Position numbers and translations under genes: made by a program
Assembly (NCBI RefSeq): GCF_014200435.1
Contig: NZ_JACHBR010000002.1
Span: forward strand, 1,309,001 to 1,373,000
Direction of reading: 5' to 3'
From: Sphaerisporangium krabiense
GTDB lineage: Bacteria; Actinomycetota; Actinomycetes; Streptosporangiales; Streptosporangiaceae
DNA length: 64,000 nt
Notes under the pieces: generated by a model
What the model saw: only the letters and a program-made list of their open reading frames with translations
Databases searched by the model: none
What the model was told of the DNA's origin: nothing
Shown here: positions 2 through 15,345 of the stretch, piece by piece
Layout of the letters: every line of letters starts with the position of its first letter
Numbering within the stretch: position 1 is the first letter of the stretch

Positions 2-1117
2 CACGAGCCCTACGAGCGCCCGCCGCTGTCGAAGGCGTGGCTGGCCGGCGCCGTCTCCACCGGCGAGCTGGCCTTCCGCGGCCCCGAGGTGTACGCGCGG
101 CGGCGGATCGAGCTGCGCACCGGCGTGCGGGTGAGCGCGATCGACCGCGGGCCCCGCGAGGTGGTCACCGCGGACGGCGCGCGCCTGCCCTACGACCACC
201 TGGTGCTGGCCACCGGCGCCCGCCCCCGCGCGCTGCCGGTCCCCGGCGCCGGCCTCGCCGGCGTGCACCGCCTGCACACCCTGGCCGACGCCCTGGCGCT
301 GCGCGCCGCCCTGGACGGCGCACGCGCCCTGGCCATCGTCGGCGGCGGGTTCATCGGGCTGGAGGTCGCCGCCGCGGCGCGCAAGCGCGGGGTCCCGACG
401 ACCGTCGTCGAGGCGGCGCCGCGGCTGATGCGGCGCGTCGTGAGCGAGCCGGTCTCGGCCTTCTACCACCGTCTGCACGAGGAGGCGGGCTGCGTGATCC
501 GCACCGAGGCGGCCGTCGGCGCGCTGACCGGCGAGGACGGGCACGTGACCGGGGTGCGGCTCGCCGACGGCGCCACGGTGCCCGCCGACATGGTGGTGGC
601 CGGCATCGGTGTCGTGCCCGAGACGGGCCTGGCCGGCGCGGCCGGGCTGGCGACCGGTGACGGCGTGCTGGTCGACGAGGCGCTGCGAACCTCCGACCCG
701 GCGGTCTTCGCCGTCGGCGACTGCGCCCGCTTCCCGCTCGGCGAGGCGATGGTGCGCCTGGAGTCGGTCCAGAACGCGGCCGACCAGGGACGCGCGGTCG
801 CCGCCGCGATCACCGGCGACGCCCGGCCCTACCGGGACGTCCCGTGGTTCTGGACCGACCAGCACGGATGCAAGCTGCAGATCGCCGGGATCGCCACCGG
901 CGCGGACGAGTGGGCCGTCGTCGGCGACGTCCAGGAGCGGCGCTTCACGGTGCTGTGCTGGCGCCGCGGCGCCCTGGTGGCGGGCGAGTCGGTCAACAGG
1001 CCGGCCGACCACCTCGCGCTGCGCCGGCTGATCGCGGCCAAGGCGTCGATCTCGCCCGCGGCCGCGCGGGCCGGCGGCTTCACGCTCAAGGACCATGCCC
1101 GCTCACTGGCCGGATGA
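2..1117 (+). CDS. FAD-dependent ferredoxin reductase, 5' end missing
   Basis: A 371-codon open frame is already open at the window edge, so the N-terminal FAD-binding glycine motif lies outside. The first visible residues, HEPYERPPLSK, are the typical motif of NAD(P)H:ferredoxin/rubredoxin reductases that serve cytochrome P450s and ring-hydroxylating oxygenases. Further on are the NAD-binding segment IVGGGFIGLEVAA and the second FAD motif VFAVGDCARF, followed by the small C-terminal reductase domain (near QNAADQGRAVA). The enzyme should pass electrons from NAD(P)H to a ferredoxin partner, which is not visible here and may be encoded just upstream. The gene ends 25 bases before a TetR gene on the same strand. 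Confidence 0.9.
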   Translation, partial: HEPYERPPLSKAWLAGAVSTGELAFRGPEVYARRRIELRTGVRVSAIDRGPREVVTADGARLPYDHLVLATGARPRALPVPGAGLAGVHRLHTLADALALRAALDGARALAIVGGGFIGLEVAAAARKRGVPTTVVEAAPRLMRRVVSEPVSAFYHRLHEEAGCVIRTEAAVGALTGEDGHVTGVRLADGATVPADMVVAGIGVVPETGLAGAAGLATGDGVLVDEALRTSDPAVFAVGDCARFPLGEAMVRLESVQNAADQGRAVAAAITGDARPYRDVPWFWTDQHGCKLQIAGIATGADEWAVVGDVQERRFTVLCWRRGALVAGESVNRPADHLALRRLIAAKASISPAAARAGGFTLKDHARSLAG

Positions 1118-1142
1118 GGCCCTGCCCGAGAAGGGACCACCC

Positions 1143-1700
1143 ATGAAGCCCGACCCCGAGAACGTCCCGGCTCCCGAACGCATCAAGGAGGCCGCGATCC
1201 GGCTGATGCGCGTCAAGGCGCCGAGCCGGATCACCGGCCGGGAGCTGGCGGCCGAGGCCCAGGTCAACTACGGCCTCGTCCACCACTACTTCGGCGGCAA
1301 GAACCAGGCGCTGCGCGAGGCGTTCCGCGAGCTCGCCCGGCAGTACGTCGACGCCGTCCAGACCATGCCCGACCACGAGCGGATCCTGCCCAACGCCGGG
1401 CCCGAGCTGAGCGACGTGTGGTTCGTGCTGGCCAACCTGGCGATGGACCCCGACTCCCTGGACATCGTCGACTGGGACTACCCCCTGCTACGTAACCGGC
1501 TCGCCGCCCGCCTGGCCGCGGAAGGCGAGGGCGCCGGCGCGGCGCGGGAGCACATCAGGCAGGACATCGCCGTCGCCTTCGCGCTCGCGCTCGGCTGGAC
1601 GGTCTTCCAGCCCTTCATCTGCGACGCGCTGGAGCTCGACGCGGAGGCCCGCAAGGCCGTCGACCGCGCGACCGCCGACATGGTCGCCGAGCGCTGGTGA
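1143..1700 (+). CDS. TetR-family transcriptional regulator
   Basis: A 185-residue protein. Residues about 11-60 form the TetR helix-turn-helix; its second half, NYGLVHHYFGGKNQALREAF, matches the family signature (Y-H-Y-F then K and L). The remainder is a helical ligand-binding domain with no recognisable ligand. I placed the start at ATG 1143 because AGAAGGGA lies just upstream; an in-frame ATG at 1095 would overlap the reductase and lacks such a site. It lies between a ferredoxin reductase and a StyA-like monooxygenase, all on one strand, so it probably controls part of the upper catabolic cassette. Ligand and operator are unknown. Confidence 0.85.
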   Translation: MKPDPENVPAPERIKEAAIRLMRVKAPSRITGRELAAEAQVNYGLVHHYFGGKNQALREAFRELARQYVDAVQTMPDHERILPNAGPELSDVWFVLANLAMDPDSLDIVDWDYPLLRNRLAARLAAEGEGAGAAREHIRQDIAVAFALALGWTVFQPFICDALELDAEARKAVDRATADMVAERW

Positions 1701-1808: not shown

Positions 1809-3077
1809 GTGAGCGGTCGAGCACGCGACATCGCGATCGTCGGAGCGGGGCAGCTCGGGCTCCACCTGGGGATCGGCCTGCTGCGCCAAGGACACCGCGT
1901 CCGGCTGATCACCAATCGCACCGGCGAGCAGATCCGCGAGGGCGGAGTGCTGTCCAGCCAGGCGATGCTGGCGCCGAGCCTGGACCTCGAACGGCGCCTG
2001 GGCCTGGAGCTGTGGGAGGGCGCCTGCCCGCCCATCCAGGGCGTCCACCTCACCTGGGTGGACCGGTCCGGCGCGGAGGTGACCCGCTTCTCGGCCCCCC
2101 GGGCGCGCCCGGCGCTGTCGGTCGACCAGCGGGTGAAGATGCCCGAATGGATGGACAGGTTCACCGCCGCCGGCGGCGACCTGGCCATCGAGGACGTCGA
2201 CGCCGGCGGGCTGAGCGCCCTGGCCGACGGGCACGACCTGGTCGTGGTGGCTGCGGGGAAGGGCGACATCTCCGGGCTGTTCCCCCGGGACACCGAGGCG
2301 ACCGAGTTCGACACGCCGCAGCGCCACCTCGCGCTCGCCTACGTCCGCGGCGTGCGCCCGCACGAGGTGTTCGAGGGCAACGACTTCGGCAAGGCCGACG
2401 GCGTGGGGGAGATGTTCATGTTCCCCGCGCTCACCGTGTCGGGACCGTGCCACATCATCACCGTCGAGGCCGAGCCGGGCGGCCCGCTCGACGTGTTCGC
2501 GCCGCGGACCGCCCCCGAGCGGGTGCTCGACCAGATCAAGGAGGCCGCCGCGGCGCACTTCCCGTGGCTGGCGCGGCGGATCGCCGGCGCCGTGGTCACC
2601 GACGCGGGCGCCACGCTGGCCGGGCGCTTCGCCCCCACCCGGCGCCGGCCGGTCGCGCACACCGCCTCCGGCCGGGCGATCCTCGGCGGCGGCGACGTGC
2701 TCGTGCTCAACGACCCGGTCACCGGGCAGGGCGCGAACAACGCGGCCCGGTGCGCGCAGCTCTACCTGGACGAGATCGCCGGGCGCGGCGACGCGCCGTT
2801 CGACGAGGCGTGGATGACGCGCACGTTCGAGCGCTACGAGCGCCTGGTGTCGGCCTCCACGCGCTGGACCAACCAGGTCCTGCGGCCGTGGCCGCCGCAC
2901 GTGCGCGACCTGCTCGCGGGCGCCCGGGACCGCGGCGACCTCGCGCAGGCGTTCGCGGAGGGCTTCGGGGACCCGGCCTCGATCCTGTCCTGGTGGGAGA
3001 GCCCGCGCGAGGCCGCCCGGCTCCTCGGCCGTGAGGGCGACACCGCCGGGCACGCGGTGACGGGCGGCCCGCGATGA
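1809..3077 (+). CDS. StyA-like (styrene/indole) FAD monooxygenase
   Basis: A 422-residue single-component-FAD oxygenase of the styrene/indole monooxygenase family (group E flavoprotein monooxygenases), close to the family length of about 415. Evidence is the N-terminal Rossmann motif GAGQLGLHLG, the DLVVVAAGKGD segment, the late FAD motif DPVTGQGANNAARCA, and a C-terminal helix with STRWTNQVLRPWPP, all in StyA order. These enzymes take reduced FAD from a separate reductase and epoxidise styrene, indole or related double bonds. The start is GTG, with GGAGGT ten bases upstream. Its TGA overlaps the ATG of the reductase gene in an ATGA, so the two are translationally coupled. Substrate cannot be decided from sequence. 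Confidence 0.85.
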   Translation: MSGRARDIAIVGAGQLGLHLGIGLLRQGHRVRLITNRTGEQIREGGVLSSQAMLAPSLDLERRLGLELWEGACPPIQGVHLTWVDRSGAEVTRFSAPRARPALSVDQRVKMPEWMDRFTAAGGDLAIEDVDAGGLSALADGHDLVVVAAGKGDISGLFPRDTEATEFDTPQRHLALAYVRGVRPHEVFEGNDFGKADGVGEMFMFPALTVSGPCHIITVEAEPGGPLDVFAPRTAPERVLDQIKEAAAAHFPWLARRIAGAVVTDAGATLAGRFAPTRRRPVAHTASGRAILGGGDVLVLNDPVTGQGANNAARCAQLYLDEIAGRGDAPFDEAWMTRTFERYERLVSASTRWTNQVLRPWPPHVRDLLAGARDRGDLAQAFAEGFGDPASILSWWESPREAARLLGREGDTAGHAVTGGPR

Positions 3078-4213
3078 CGGCCGCGGGCGAACCGTCCGGC
3101 GCCGAGTACCGGGATGTCATCGGGCGGTTCGCCTCCGGGGTCACGATCATCACGGCCCGCCACGACGGCATCGACTACGGGATGACGGCGAGCGCGGTGT
3201 GCTCGCTGTCGCTCGATCCGCCCATGGTCGTCGTCTGCGTGAACCGCGACGCGACGACCGGCGTGGCCATCGCGGCCGGCGGCACCTTCGCCGTGAACGT
3301 GATGTCCTCCGACCAGGGCTGGCTGGCCCACCGGTTCGCCACCCCGCTGCCCGACCGGTTCGCCGGGGTCGGCGTCCGCCGCGCCGCCCCGGAGGCGGAC
3401 CCGCTGTTCGAGGACTGCCTCGCCTACCTGGAGTGCGAGGTCGAGGAGGAGGTGGCGGGCGGCACCCACCGGGTGTTCCTCGGCCGGGTGCTGCGCGCCG
3501 CCGCCGCCGAGCTGGAACCGCTGACCTACTTCCGCGGGAGGTTCGGGCGCTTCGAGCTGGAACAGCACGCGCAGGCGTACCGCGACCTCTACCGGATGGT
3601 GGTGGAACGCGCGCTGCCGCTGCACGAGCCGCTGGCGCCGGCGGCGCTCGCCGAGCGGCTCGGCATTCCCGTCTCGGCCGCGTTCCACGCGCTGGTCCGC
3701 CTCACCGCCGACGGGCTCGTCCACCGCGACCCCGAGCGCGGGTTCCTGCAGGTCGTGTTCAAGGCCGAGCAGGCGATCGAGGGCTACGAGGTCAAGCGGA
3801 TCCTGGACATGGCCGTGGTGGACCTGACGGTCGGCGCGGTGCCCGGGGAGGGGTTGCGCCGGCTGGAGGAGCTCTGCGACCGGGCCAACGAGCTGGTCGA
3901 CGACGAGCACGGCGTGCTGGACGTCGCCGCCTACCGCGAGCGCGCGCTCAGGTTCCAGGAGGCGATGATCGGGCTGACCGGCAACGCGACCCTGGTCGCG
4001 ACCTTCCGCACCCTGCGGATCCCCGAGCTGATCTCCCTGCCGCACCAGATCGGCCCCGCCACCGCGCCCAGGATCGCGGCCAACCGCCGCCGCATCGTGG
4101 ACGGCTACCTGGCCGGCGACCCGGCGCTGGTGCGCGCGGCGCTGCTCGACCAGTACGAGCTGTGCAAGAGCCTCACCGTCGCCTACATCGGCCGGTCGGG
4201 CGGTGAACTGTGA
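3074..4213 (+). CDS. Flavin reductase fused to GntR/FCD-type module
   Basis: A 379-residue fusion. Residues 10-165 are an HpaC/StyB-type flavin reductase: MTASAVCSLSLDPP at 37-50, THRVFLGRVL at 131-140 with the conserved His132, and TYFRGRFGRF at 151-160. Ordinary family members stop here. Residues 170-228 are a GntR-like winged helix and 235-372 an all-helical FCD-like domain. The usual recognition segment (SRxPVREAL) reads IPVSAAFHAL, losing its arginines, and the FCD metal ligands are replaced (RFQ for FH, NRRR and DQYE for the later His positions). I infer a sensor module on the reductase rather than a DNA-binding repressor. It overlaps StyA upstream (ATGA) and the SDR downstream (GTGA). 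Confidence 0.85.
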   Translation: MTAAGEPSGAEYRDVIGRFASGVTIITARHDGIDYGMTASAVCSLSLDPPMVVVCVNRDATTGVAIAAGGTFAVNVMSSDQGWLAHRFATPLPDRFAGVGVRRAAPEADPLFEDCLAYLECEVEEEVAGGTHRVFLGRVLRAAAAELEPLTYFRGRFGRFELEQHAQAYRDLYRMVVERALPLHEPLAPAALAERLGIPVSAAFHALVRLTADGLVHRDPERGFLQVVFKAEQAIEGYEVKRILDMAVVDLTVGAVPGEGLRRLEELCDRANELVDDEHGVLDVAAYRERALRFQEAMIGLTGNATLVATFRTLRIPELISLPHQIGPATAPRIAANRRRIVDGYLAGDPALVRAALLDQYELCKSLTVAYIGRSGGEL

Positions 4214-5013
4214 CGGGCGGGGACCGGGTCGCCCTGGTCGCCGGAGGCGCGACCGTGCTCGGCGAGGCCGTGGTGCGCGGGCTGGCCGAGGACGGCTTCA
4301 CGGTGGTCGTCGCGGACATCGACGCAGAGGCGGGCGAGCGGCTGCGCGGGGCCGTCGGCGGGACCTGCGTGTTCATGCCCATGGACATCACCGACGAGGA
4401 CTCCGTCCGCGCGGTGGTGGCCGAGGCCGCGCGGCGGGGGCGGCTGGAGGTGGTCGTGACCATGGTCGCCTCCTACGCCGACCCCGGCCTGGCGGCCGAC
4501 GCGGACGCCTGGGTGCGGAGCCTGCGCGTGAACGTCGTCGGCCCCGCGCTGGTGATCCGCGAGGCGGCGCCGCACCTGGCCGCGTCGGGCCGGGGCGCCG
4601 TCGTGAACGTCGCCAGCGTCAGCGCGGACCGCGCGCAGGCGAACAAGCTGCTCTACCCCGCGGGCAAGGCGGCGCTCGGCCAGCTCACCCGCAACCTCGC
4701 GCTCACGCTGGCGCCGTCGGGCATCCGGGTGAACGGCGTGTCGCCGAGCTGGGTGTGGTCGGCCCCGATGGCACGGCGTTCGGGAGGCGACCGCGCCCTG
4801 GCCGACGAGGTGGCGGCCGGCTTCCACATGATCCCGCGGATGGCCGACGCCCGCGAGGTCGCCGACGCGATCCGCTTCCTGTGCTCGGCGTCGGCGTCGT
4901 TCATCACCGGCGAGGACCTGCACGTCGACGGCGGCTACTCGGCGCTCAGCCCCGAGGGCAAGGTCAACCCGTGGGAGCGGCACGCGCGGGCCGCGGCCGG
5001 TCGGCCGGAATAG
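4210..5013 (+). CDS. SDR-family oxidoreductase
   Basis: A 267-residue classical short-chain dehydrogenase/reductase. The cofactor-binding glycine motif AGGATVLGE is at residues 11-19, Asp36 in ADID suggests NAD(H), Ser136 and the Y149-PAG-K153 motif form the catalytic set, and the C-terminal DLHVDGGYS is typical of the family. The usual NNAG stretch is replaced by TMVAS near residue 84. The GTG start overlaps the stop of the reductase fusion, making a three-gene coupled block of StyA, reductase and SDR. The same trio occurs in known indole-oxidation clusters, where the SDR oxidises the dihydroxylated product; that role here is inference. Confidence 0.88.
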   Translation: MTGGDRVALVAGGATVLGEAVVRGLAEDGFTVVVADIDAEAGERLRGAVGGTCVFMPMDITDEDSVRAVVAEAARRGRLEVVVTMVASYADPGLAADADAWVRSLRVNVVGPALVIREAAPHLAASGRGAVVNVASVSADRAQANKLLYPAGKAALGQLTRNLALTLAPSGIRVNGVSPSWVWSAPMARRSGGDRALADEVAAGFHMIPRMADAREVADAIRFLCSASASFITGEDLHVDGGYSALSPEGKVNPWERHARAAAGRPE

Positions 5014-12333: not shown

Positions 12334-13047
12334 ATGAGTTCGTGGACCACGGCAGGCACCCCCCGGATCCACCCGGTGATCCACGTGGCCGGCGTCGCGC
12401 AGGTGCTCTCCGAGATCGGCAAGGCCGTCGCGCACGGGGTGGACGGCGTGTTCCTGATCGACCACGACGCCGACGACGCCCGCCTGGTCCGGTGCGTGGC
12501 CGCCGCGCGCGAGCGCCACCCCGGCCTGTTCCTGGGGGCCAACGTCATCAAGCGCGGCCCGCACGCCGCGCTGGCCCTCCTGCACGAGGCCTTCCCCGGC
12601 GGCGTGCCGCTCGACGCGCTCTGGACGGACCGGGCGGCGGTCGGCCTCGGCGGGCCGGAGCCCGAGTTCGAGCGGTTCGCCGCCCTGCGCGCGGGCATCG
12701 GCTGGCACGGCCTGCAGTTCGGCGGCGTGGCCTTCAAGTACCAGGACCCGGTGCCCGAGGCCGCGCTGCCCGGCCTCGCGCGCGCCGTCCGCGACCACGT
12801 GGACGTGGCGACGACGTCCGGCCCCGGCACCGGCCAGGCCGCCGGCCGCGCCAAGCTGGAGGCGCTGAGGTCGGGGCTCGGGGACCGTCCGCTGGCGCTG
12901 GCCAGCGGTGTCACCCCGGGCAACGTGCGGCTCTTCGCCGGCCTGGTGGACCACATCCTCGTCTCGACCGGCATCAACGCCCCCTCCGGCGGCATCGACG
13001 AGCGGCTGCTCGCCGCCCTCCTGCGCGCGGTGCGCGAGGATCGCTGA
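12334..13047 (+). CDS. BtpA/SgcQ-like TIM-barrel protein
   Basis: A 237-residue protein resembling the BtpA family (PF03437). It has the successive strands expected of the barrel: HPVIHVAGVAQVLSEI, GVDGVFLIDHD, FLGANVIKRG, LQFGGVAFKYQDP, and the C-terminal phosphate-site region TTSGPGTGQAAGRAKLE followed by LASGVTPGNVRLF and VDHILVSTGI. BtpA itself was named for photosystem I biogenesis, but bacterial relatives probably bind or cleave phosphorylated sugars or nucleosides; function here is unknown. ATG 12334 is chosen because GAAAGAGG lies just upstream; a TTG/ATG further up has none. It is divergent from the flavoprotein and convergent with a substrate-binding protein across a hairpin. Confidence 0.7.
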   Translation: MSSWTTAGTPRIHPVIHVAGVAQVLSEIGKAVAHGVDGVFLIDHDADDARLVRCVAAARERHPGLFLGANVIKRGPHAALALLHEAFPGGVPLDALWTDRAAVGLGGPEPEFERFAALRAGIGWHGLQFGGVAFKYQDPVPEAALPGLARAVRDHVDVATTSGPGTGQAAGRAKLEALRSGLGDRPLALASGVTPGNVRLFAGLVDHILVSTGINAPSGGIDERLLAALLRAVREDR

Positions 13048-13054
13048 GAAGCAG

Positions 13055-13086
13055 GTGCGGAGGCCGCCACCGGGCGGCCTCCGCAC
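13055..13086. terminator. Bidirectional terminator hairpin
   Basis: A perfect 14-bp inverted repeat (13055-13068 with 13073-13086) with a 4-base loop lies between the convergent BtpA-like and substrate-binding protein genes. Confidence 0.85.
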
Positions 13087-13104
13087 GCTCCGGGCCGGAG
13101 CGGG

Positions 13105-14061
13105 TCACGGGGCCTGGCGGATCAGGCTCTTGAGGTCGGGGGCGTCCTTGATCCAGCCGTACTCCTTCATGAATCCTCCGAGCACCTCGAAGGTCTTCTC
13201 GTCCACGCCGGTCCGGTAGTCGGCGATGGCCATCCGCGCCGCGACGTCCGGCTTGATCGCCGTGAACGTCGGGATGATCTTCCGCACCTCGTCGGGGTGG
13301 GCCTGGGCGTACTCGTTGGCCTCCCTGAGCGCCGCGACGAAGTCGTCCACCGTCTTGGCGTGCTCCGCCACGTAGGACCTGGAGGAGAAGTACGTGGAGA
13401 ACGCCGTGCCCTTGCCGGCCAGATCGCCCTGCGGGTTGCGCAGGACGACCTCGTCGCCCGCCGCGCTCGCGCCGCTCAGGAACGGCTCGATGAGGAACGC
13501 GGCGTCGACGCGCCCGCCGTCCAGGGCCGCCCGCATGTCGGGGTAGGGCAGGGGGAGGAACTTCAGCGAGCCGGGGTCGCCGCCGGCCTTCTCCATGGCC
13601 GCGCGGAGCACCAGGTCGTTGACGCCCTGCAGCGCGTTGACCGCGACGGTCTTGCCCGCGAGGTCGCCGATCGCCTTGATGGGGCTGCCCTTCCTGACCA
13701 CGATCGCCTGGCTCAGCGGGTCGCCCTGGGCGATGGCCCCGGCGATCACCGTGATGGGCAGCCCCTTCGCCTGGGCCTGGATCTCGGGCACGGGCGCCGC
13801 GAAGCCGAACTGGTACTCGCCGCTCATGACCGCCGCCGTGGCGGCCGCCCCGGTCTGGACCTCCTTGAGCTCCAGTTCCAGCCCGTGCTCGGTGAAGAAG
13901 CCCTTCTGCTTGGCGAGGTAGAGAGGGGCGACGTCGATGGTCGGGATGATCCCGACCTTGACGGTGGTGGTTCCGCCCGCCCCGGGCGCCTGGTCGGCGG
14001 GGCCGCCGCAGGCCGCGGCCGCGATGCAGATGAGGAGAACCGCGCTGGCCAGCTTGCGCAT
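13105..14061 (-). CDS. ABC transporter substrate-binding lipoprotein (SsuA/NMT1-like), second copy
   Basis: A 318-residue lipoprotein with a short signal peptide and lipobox Cys18 (AAAAC). The fold is the same SsuA/NMT1 type as the protein at 6273: GIIPTIDVAPLYLAKQKGFF, IGDLAGKTVAVNALQG, and ALDGGRVDAAFLIEPF. The two differ enough in the binding regions to have different ligand preference. It is a single gene with its own promoter (14131-14160), separate from the permease/ATPase operon at 19804, which lacks a receptor gene. I infer that it feeds that transporter with an aromatic acid, sulfonate or similar anion. Confidence 0.88.
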   Translation of the reverse strand: MRKLASAVLLICIAAAACGGPADQAPGAGGTTTVKVGIIPTIDVAPLYLAKQKGFFTEHGLELELKEVQTGAAATAAVMSGEYQFGFAAPVPEIQAQAKGLPITVIAGAIAQGDPLSQAIVVRKGSPIKAIGDLAGKTVAVNALQGVNDLVLRAAMEKAGGDPGSLKFLPLPYPDMRAALDGGRVDAAFLIEPFLSGASAAGDEVVLRNPQGDLAGKGTAFSTYFSSRSYVAEHAKTVDDFVAALREANEYAQAHPDEVRKIIPTFTAIKPDVAARMAIADYRTGVDEKTFEVLGGFMKEYGWIKDAPDLKSLIRQAP

Positions 14062-14113
14062 GGACCACTCCTTGCGGGTGGGAGTTGCTGATGGGAGGTG
14101 CTCGGGGCGCCGG

Positions 14114-14160
14114 CCACCCGGAGTGGAGACAAGTTACGCATTACTTCGGCGGGGTGTCAA
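14114..14160 (-). promoter_or_regulatory. Promoter and palindromic operator of the second substrate-binding protein
   Basis: On the minus strand TTGACA (14160-14155), an 18-base spacer and TAACTT (14136-14131) form a good promoter. Immediately downstream is the palindrome CCAC-CCGGA-GTGG (14114-14126). The 18 bases at 14126-14143 match 14 of 18 with 16953-16970, at the promoter of the aldehyde dehydrogenase gene. Confidence 0.55.
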
Positions 14161-14176
14161 CGATCCGTCGCCGGCC

Positions 14177-14232
14177 TTGACGGTGGGCGGCTCCGCCGAT
14201 TCAATGGTCAACGCATCACCAGAGTGACATGT
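14177..14232 (+). promoter_or_regulatory. Promoter and palindromic operator of the LLM monooxygenase
   Basis: TTGACG (14177-14182), an 18-base spacer and TCAATG (14201-14206) precede the palindrome TCAC-CAGA-GTGA (14216-14227), which is followed by CATGTT. The same arrangement, TCAC-N4-GTGACA-N-GTT, occurs at 16945-16962. Confidence 0.45.
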
Positions 14233-14250
14233 TCATCGTTGGGAGCGCGT

Positions 14251-15345
14251 ATGACCCGTCCGTTGTCGCGGGAGACCGGCATGAAACTCGGCATCTTCTC
14301 CGCGAACTGCAGTAGCGGGCTGGCCGTGACCAAGGTGCCGGAGCGCTGGTCGGGGAGCTGGGAGGACAACCTGGCCATGGCGCGGCTCGCCGACGCCGCC
14401 GGCATCGACTTCCTGCTGCCCATCGCGCGCTGGATCGGCTACGGCGGCGACACGAACTTCCACGAGGGCGTCCTGGAGCCCATCGCCTGGGCCGCGGGGC
14501 TGCTGGCCAGGACCGAGCGGATCACCGTCTTCTCGACGGTCCACACCGCCTTCAACCACCCGCTCGTCACCGCCAAGCAGATGGCGACGCTGGACCACAT
14601 CGGCGAGGGACGCGCCGGGCTCAACATCGTGGCCGGGTGGAACAAGCCCGAGTACGACGCCTTCGGCGTGGAACTGCCCGAGGGGCACGACGCGCGGTAC
14701 GCGCTCGGACAGGAGTGGTTCGACATCATCCGGCGGTTGTGGACCGAACCCGGATCATGGGATCACCACGGGACGTACTTCACGCTCAAGGGGGCGGCGA
14801 GCGACCCCAAGCCGTTCGCCGGGCCGTTGCCGATCTTCAACGCGGGCGCGTCCCCGCAGGGCAGGGAGTTCGCGGCGCGCAACGCCGACTTCATCTTCAC
14901 GCCCTTCGTCGACCTCGCCATGGCCGCGCGGGTGCGGGCGCGGGTGACCGAGGCCGCGGCGGCGCACGGCCGGACCGTCGGCATGCTCACCTCCAGCCAC
15001 GTCGTCTGCCGGCCCACCCGTGAGGAGGCCAGGGAGTTCTACCGGTGGTACTCCGAGGAGAACGCCGACTGGGACGCGGTGGACAACCTGATGGCGTTGC
15101 AGAACCTGCACGCGCAGTCGTTCTCCAAGGAGATGCTCGCCGGCTACCGCTGGCGCTTCGCCGCGGGGCACGGCAGCTATCCGCTGGTCGGCACCCCGGA
15201 CGACGTCGCCGCCGAACTGGAGGCGATGTACGGGGCGGGGGTCGGCGGCACGACGCTGGCCTTCTTCGACTACGTCAAGGAGCTGCCGTACTTCGCCGAC
15301 GAGGTCCTGCCGCGCCTGCGGAAGAAGGGCGTCCGCCTCGTGTAG
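14251..15345 (+). CDS. LLM-class flavin-dependent monooxygenase
   Basis: A 364-residue luciferase-like monooxygenase of the group containing RutA, SfnG and SsuD. Typical segments are MKLGIFSANCSSG at the N-terminus, GYGGDTNFHEGVLEPIAWAA, ATLDHIGEGRAGLNIVAGWN and KPEYDAFGVELP, in the order found in RutA. These enzymes use reduced FMN from a partner reductase and oxygen to cleave C-S or C-N bonds or oxidise heterocycles. The ATG at 14251 has GGGAG five bases upstream; the ATG at 14281, where family similarity starts, is also possible. It is a single gene with its own operator, ending at a hairpin. The reductase partner could be the fusion protein at 3074, though that looks FAD-linked. Confidence 0.87.
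   Translation: MTRPLSRETGMKLGIFSANCSSGLAVTKVPERWSGSWEDNLAMARLADAAGIDFLLPIARWIGYGGDTNFHEGVLEPIAWAAGLLARTERITVFSTVHTAFNHPLVTAKQMATLDHIGEGRAGLNIVAGWNKPEYDAFGVELPEGHDARYALGQEWFDIIRRLWTEPGSWDHHGTYFTLKGAASDPKPFAGPLPIFNAGASPQGREFAARNADFIFTPFVDLAMAARVRARVTEAAAAHGRTVGMLTSSHVVCRPTREEAREFYRWYSEENADWDAVDNLMALQNLHAQSFSKEMLAGYRWRFAAGHGSYPLVGTPDDVAAELEAMYGAGVGGTTLAFFDYVKELPYFADEVLPRLRKKGVRLV

Follow-up and report, generated by a model that had tools for sequence, protein, structure and literature searches.

A flavin reductase fused to a GntR/FCD-type tail in Sphaerisporangium krabiense: a candidate substrate-gated enzyme with a regulator-derived tail

The gene at positions 3074-4213 of the window (the whole 64,000-nucleotide stretch of Sphaerisporangium krabiense DNA that was analysed) raises the question of what the fold of a transcriptional regulator does when it is attached to the C terminus of a flavin reductase. 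The host genome is an 8.5-Mb assembly of four contigs and the window lies on contig C2 (1.58 Mb). The features on which the analysis draws are the following.

1095..1700, + strand: TetR-family regulator (Pfam), candidate transcriptional regulator of the cluster
1809..3077, + strand: StyA/IndA-type group E flavoprotein monooxygenase, probable partner, with a 4-nt overlap with the start of the fusion
3074..4213, + strand: fusion gene encoding flavin reductase, GntR winged helix and FCD (Pfam, homologous fusions)
3122..3550, + strand: Flavin_Reduct domain, residues 17-159 (Pfam, E 1.1e-39)
3569..3745, + strand: GntR-type winged helix, residues 166-224 (Pfam, E 6.5e-6; tail profile)
3671..3703, + strand: recognition helix, residues 200-210 (VSAAFHALVRL), in which the GntR Arg-Glu pair is Phe-His
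3785..4147, + strand: FCD domain, residues 238-358 (Pfam, E 2.4e-9, above cut-off), with A, Q, no His and Q at the metal-ligand positions
4210..5013, + strand: short-chain dehydrogenase (SDR; Pfam), its start overlapping the fusion stop by 4 nt

The fusion gene is one open reading frame on the forward strand, running from ATG to TGA and encoding 379 residues with no internal stop codon, and the three Pfam domains follow one another within it, as the original prediction of a flavin reductase fused to a GntR/FCD regulator had it. The reductase domain (PF01613) scored 136.5 bits against a curated cut-off of 27. The GntR match reached 26.2 bits on the whole protein, just below the 27-bit Pfam cut-off, and 27.6 bits, above it, on the C-terminal half alone. 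A tail profile of 12 rows aligned nearly full-length with GntR/FCD regulators of known structure (6z74, E 7e-17 over positions 12-207 of 219; 3sxy, E 4e-15; 3fms, E 6e-15), and by Pfam and by this profile the tail contains both the winged helix and the FCD domain of such regulators. FCD and GntR were its top Pfam ranks; the MarR domain of C1-type reductases was not detected in it, MarR_2 giving 22 bits, below its cut-off. GC3 stayed at 0.89-1.0 in each 40-codon block across the frame. HpaC/StyB-type flavin reductases carry a GDH signature near residue 130, which is present in most reductases of the 77-row set described below; the window protein has GGTH there, the fusions listed have GTH or ATH instead of GDH, ATH also stands in the CphB-type row, and GDH is likewise replaced in some of the clade's unfused members. 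Single-sequence AlphaFold models, one for the full-length protein and one for the tail, were poor (pLDDT 41.8 and 48.1), so that no pocket or interface was visible in them.

Homologues of the same architecture were sought by profile search, as had been suggested earlier, and the fusion proved to be a family rather than a single oddity: 15 loci were found (the window genome, 13 further genomes and a plasmid of Dietzia lutea), the frame being open in 14. A seven-row profile scored the full-length fusions at 303-648 bits and the best lone reductase at 196 bits, so that the two were easily separated. Eight genomes, including that of the window, carried a fusion in the search of the family (341 genomes; the search of the order, 345 genomes, covered largely the same ones); seven of these copies are intact and that of G103 is split over two frames. 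Three more fusions came from a class-wide draw of 394 genomes, one from 85 genomes of the family of one of these finds, and two from a draw of 296 genomes across the phylum, with the plasmid copy as the last; the 39 genomes searched from the family of G803 yielded no further fusion. The copy in a congener is 96% identical and lies in a syntenic block, and a search of the nine remaining genomes sampled from the genus found no fusion at E 1e-40. The scan of genome_contigs returned only one distant reductase (L038) and that of viral_contigs none. In the G103 copy (L050:4755-5585), which lies on a short 7.5-kb contig, the FCD part is in another frame. A sequencing error, or two adjacent genes read as one, was considered as the origin of the fused frame and was ruled out by the same layout elsewhere, in the 13 further genomes and on the Dietzia plasmid, and by the congener copy.

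The recognition helix was compared across the family in an alignment of 15 fused helices, comprising 13 fusions and two CphB-type rows, from which L042 (broken) and L098/L108 (near-copy of L080) are absent; L012 and L006 were tabulated and, having no winged helix, were not counted. The controls were 20 proteins of the window genome judged to be GntR-type from the alignment, not from Pfam, with L125 left out (non-GntR N-terminus, Ser at the arginine position). Two of the aligned positions are held by arginines that contact DNA in FadR-type proteins. The window protein has V200 and F204 at these positions, and H205 replaces the Glu. The second arginine (R2, of the VREAL motif), here F204, is present in 20/20 controls vs 1/15 fused helices (Fisher p 6e-9), the exception being L101, and in one of seven lineages by our own grouping; the preceding arginine is present in 14/20 controls vs 3/15 fused helices. 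The predicted absence of the GntR recognition-helix arginines is thus borne out, and at the level of sequence it extends over nearly the whole family. Phe or Tyr occupies R2 in 11 of the 15 fused helices, with His or Tyr next to it in 12. A later arginine, R209 in the window protein, is found in 12/15 fused helices vs 4/20 controls, from which the helix seems to have been rebuilt rather than left decaying; R209 and the arginines of the wing remain in the window protein, which may still bind DNA weakly.

The metal ligands of FCD domains are an Asp or Asn and three His. The corresponding positions in the window protein are A291, Q295, no His at the third and Q at the fourth, so that the usual chemistry of an FCD pocket is not to be assumed for it. 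The original prediction that these ligands are missing was therefore right for the window protein and its congener, the only ones to have lost all of them, and does not carry over to the family: four fusions (L099, L100, L010 and L043) keep the three His, and one or two remain in the luciferase-linked group. Among 21 control FCDs, His occupies the three positions in 18, 19 and 17. Over four pairs of relatives the dN/dS ratio of the FCD domain was 0.04-0.47, and over five pairs that of the winged helix was 0-0.44; in L106/L107, the fifth pair, saturation of dS left the FCD ratio without a value. For L010/L043 the FCD ratio was 0.43, faster than the reductase (0.14). In the closest pair, the window protein and G008, the FCD shows four amino-acid changes in five base changes (dN/dS 1.49) and the winged helix none in six, both with too few sites to read.

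Trees were calculated for the reductase and the FCD domains. Retaining the reductase domains that spanned more than 110 residues of the query, one per identical set, gave an alignment of 77 rows, of which 70 were used for the tree (L102, L087, L089, L090, L005, L038 and L042 were omitted as near-copies, a frameshifted copy or odd rows). The fusions share one branch of low support (SH-aLRT 83) with CphB, five unfused reductases and the helix-less L012/L054, and the fusion label requires at least three changes on this tree. The FCD tree contained 44 rows, with two CphB-type rows, the duplicate L006 and the reductase-only match L142 omitted. In it the 13 fused FCDs group with the FCD of L012/L054 in a single clade (98/96) that excludes the window genome's 21 other FCD proteins. 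L054 has kept the FCD and lost the winged helix, the CphB-type protein has kept the winged helix and lost the FCD, and unfused members of the clade are present at L053 and L056. By these trees the tails tested share a common ancestry and either half of the tail has been lost independently; the simplest reading would be one fusion followed by partial losses, with the placement of L054/L012 unsure because it sits on a long branch. Close unfused relatives (L011, L044) exist, which means that some clusters can do without the tail.

A second set of reductase-FCD proteins has no winged helix. Its member in the window genome (G000:C1:4113856-4114827) consists of a reductase, 30 residues and then an FCD domain (85 bits). 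This copy corresponds to L111:7854-8831 on the reverse strand of contig C1, and an HpaB-type gene lies upstream on the same strand (12792-14246). Proteins of this kind are full-length in 9 of the 341 family genomes (L133-L141); 11 genomes matched the query, G337 and G052 in the reductase part only. The three His were kept in 9/9 loci, as judged by eye, and an HpaB-type oxygenase was found in the flanks of all nine, next to the reductase-FCD gene at two loci and some 4-4.6 kb from it at seven. The FCDs of this set form their own branch (95/94) on the FCD tree, and the reductase of the window genome has GGDH, vs GTH or ATH in the first set. A separate origin of the second set is favoured, and a common origin of both sets was not rejected by the AU test (p 0.26). 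We propose tentatively, at somewhat less than even odds, that FCD domains were captured at least twice by actinobacterial two-component flavin reductases, with an aromatic-rebuilt transmission helix in one line and none in the other.

Within the window the fusion lies between the oxygenase and the SDR. The start and stop codons overlap as had been noted earlier, in ATGA at 3074-3077 (oxygenase stop and fusion start) and in GTGA at 4210-4213 (fusion stop and SDR start). They had also been taken as support for a protein complex, a step that we do not follow, since overlapping codons indicate translational coupling and allow no inference to a complex. The partner had been called StyA. The group E, StyA/IndA-type assignment holds, and the styrene type looks less likely: the oxygenase scored 397 bits against 7z4x, vs 143 and 127 bits against the styrene monooxygenases 9qi9 and 3ihm. 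We take 7z4x to be an indole-type enzyme, and by this comparison the window oxygenase looks like an indole monooxygenase rather than a styrene monooxygenase. It is 45% identical to an oxygenase encoded in an A. baumannii record, possibly IifC. Inverted repeats occur within 1690-1830, in a search that had no shuffle control, and could equally be a TetR operator. About 10 kb from the fusion, a luciferase-type monooxygenase is encoded at 14098-15342 on the forward strand; an NMT1-type binding protein, an aldehyde dehydrogenase, an AMP-ligase and PaaX lie near it, in what resembles a catabolic island.

Across the first set, a flavin-dependent oxygenase was found in the flanks of 12 of the 15 loci, and these oxygenases are of three unrelated kinds: group E StyA type at two loci (the window and G008), HpaB type at three (L051, L052, L109) and luciferase type at seven (L047, L048, L049, L105, L106, L107, L108). 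In five loci the luciferase-type gene is the immediate, divergently transcribed neighbour of the fusion, being cut by the contig end in L108; in L047 and L048 the two genes share a strand and stand about 4 kb apart. No oxygenase was found with the queries used at L050, whose contig measures 7.5 kb, or at L101 and L110. Separate regulators are encoded near several fusions (TetR in the window, PucR-type at L047, a response regulator at L051). Flavin reductases commonly adjoin oxygenases in any case, and this linkage is therefore no test of gating.

The reading that we prefer, with a probability of about 0.62, is that the protein would be an NADH:flavin reductase whose GntR/FCD tail has become its own small-molecule-gated allosteric domain. 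The N-terminal domain would supply the StyA/IndA-type oxygenase of the adjoining upstream gene by reducing free FAD or FMN, an aromatic compound of the pathway would bind in the FCD pocket, and the winged helix, its DNA face exchanged for aromatic residues, would act as a mechanical link or interface, the reductase remaining slow until ligand is bound. Occupation of the FCD would then be signalled through the converted winged helix and flavin reduction would become faster. This reading builds on the three domains in one frame, the shared ancestry of the tails tested, the loss of R2, the separate losses of tail halves, the second set, the neighbouring oxygenases, the separate regulators, the low dN/dS ratios among relatives and the C1 precedent; against it stand the high FCD ratio of the closest pair, the FCD of L010/L043 evolving faster than the reductase, the lost metal ligands of the window protein, the remaining arginines, the three loci at which the queries used found no oxygenase, and the unfused relatives. 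Flavin reduced in the absence of substrate is lost to peroxide formation; gating of this kind would spare NADH and avoid peroxide when substrate is lacking. The ligand in the window cluster would most likely be an indole-like or a styrene-like molecule, and as the oxygenase and SDR recall the iifC-iifD-iifB trio discussed below, indole-like compounds would be the first candidates.

The tail might instead be a docking or oligomerisation module that joins the reductase into a dimer, or holds it to the oxygenase and the SDR for flavin handover, and senses nothing. Regulator folds of this kind dimerise, the recognition helix with its aromatic residues could serve as a contact surface between proteins, the overlapping codons fit coupled production and the metal ligands have been lost in the window protein. 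We nevertheless regard a pure docking role as unlikely: one would hardly expect a single docking surface in a tail family whose neighbouring oxygenases have three unrelated folds, each half of the tail is missing from some member, the unfused clade member at L053 adjoins an HpaB gene, and the FCD histidines are kept throughout the second set.

A bifunctional trigger enzyme that binds DNA near the operon, coupling its transcription to the redox state of the flavin or to substrate, would account for a winged helix that is complete by Pfam, for the frequent R209-type arginine, the Arg in the wing and the R2 retained in L101, and perhaps for the repeats upstream of the operon. The loss of R2 from 14 of the 15 fused helices weighs against it, as do the relative that has deleted the helix, the second set that has none and the separate regulators in several clusters, and the repeats could as well belong to the TetR protein; we consider such a role quite improbable. 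More improbable still is that the tail is a passenger, the remnant of a past gene fusion persisting without function. The high FCD ratio of the closest pair, although from few sites, the loss of tail halves in some members and the existence of unfused clade members would agree with this, but the low FCD ratios in the four pairs of relatives, the open frame at 14 of the 15 loci and the existence of a second reductase-FCD set argue against a passenger.

If the gated-reductase reading is true, the occurrence of another sensor fold next to oxygenases of the StyA, HpaB and luciferase types would imply that the gating logic is general and, together with the MarR tail of C1, that conversion of a regulator to an allosteric domain is a recurring route to substrate-gated reduced flavin, whatever the oxygenase fold. 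The family offers natural variants for testing gating (helix lost, FCD lost, unfused), and its FCD pockets might report what the neighbouring oxygenases act on.

Several other reductases carrying additional domains were encountered. Another C-terminal domain of about 150 residues is present in L003 (G000:C1:2122436-2122873, in the window genome), L104:4941-5942, L156, L157 and PDB 3rh7; it is NUDIX-like by eye, with no Pfam match above cut-off in L104, L156 and L157, and a luciferase-type gene adjoins the reductase in L156 and L157. A flavin reductase with a tail of 214-256 residues, HMGL-like by Pfam in L025, occurs in L025:1480-2598 and also in L020 and L086-L090, all but L086 in genome bins of 1.0-1.7 Mb. 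In L032:1438-2412 the tail of about 150 residues resembles a MarR-type winged helix, Pfam giving only HVO_A0261_N, below cut-off.

Among known systems, the tail profile matches the GntR/FCD regulators (PDB 6z74, 7xp0, 3sxy) nearly end to end; in contrast to these, the fusion tails are without the DNA-reading arginine and stand behind an enzyme, and the window protein is without the metal ligands. PDB 3rh7 and a rhizobial relative, which adjoins a luciferase-like monooxygenase gene (L157), are two-domain reductases like the fusion, but their tail is not GntR/FCD. The window shares its set of oxygenase, reductase and SDR with the indole trio iifC-iifD-iifB, in which a group E oxygenase, a reductase and an SDR occur together (PMC4577076, PMC6165268), whereas IifD has a reported length of only 176 residues, vs 379 in the fusion (PMC4577076), and at that length has no room for a GntR/FCD-like tail. 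Dienelactone hydrolase, the family of IifA, had no Pfam match among the 16 window genes scanned. CphB of Pseudarthrobacter chlorophenolicus A6 falls in the same branch of the reductase tree as the fusions (support 90, not starred), and the CphB-type winged helix is likewise without the R2 arginine; locus L103 is identified as cphB from its organism and gene order, not from a recorded gene name. The window protein also has a winged helix after the reductase, but CphB-type proteins (259 residues) end there, without an FCD, while the window protein continues into an FCD that scores above cut-off. Reductases with helix-turn-helix tails have been described for chlorophenol, fluorophenol and nitrophenol monooxygenases, the helix-turn-helix being expected to serve substrate recognition, and CphB is reported as expressed and characterised (PMC6205950). 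With such tails on phenol-type reductases already in print, the novelty would be limited to the FCD-bearing form; no description of a GntR/FCD-tailed flavin reductase was found in the literature searched, to which most subscription papers did not belong.

The closest functional parallel is C1 (AbHpaC), the reductase of 4-hydroxyphenylacetate 3-hydroxylase from Acinetobacter baumannii (PDB 5ZC2), which like the window protein joins an HpaC-type reductase to a regulator-derived C-terminal domain and, as proposed here, supplies a two-component oxygenase. The MarR tail of C1 inhibits its own reductase, and binding of 4-HPA relieves the inhibition with at least 30-fold stimulation, a substrate gating of the reductase termed uncommon among flavin-dependent monooxygenases (PMC10816480). 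The substrate-gated logic carried over from C1 in the original prediction stands as an analogy only, gating having been demonstrated for C1 and being inferred for the window protein. The suggestion of an independent solution agrees with the folds: the tail is MarR in C1 and GntR/FCD here, and only the reductase parts of the two proteins align (5zc2, query residues 12-158).
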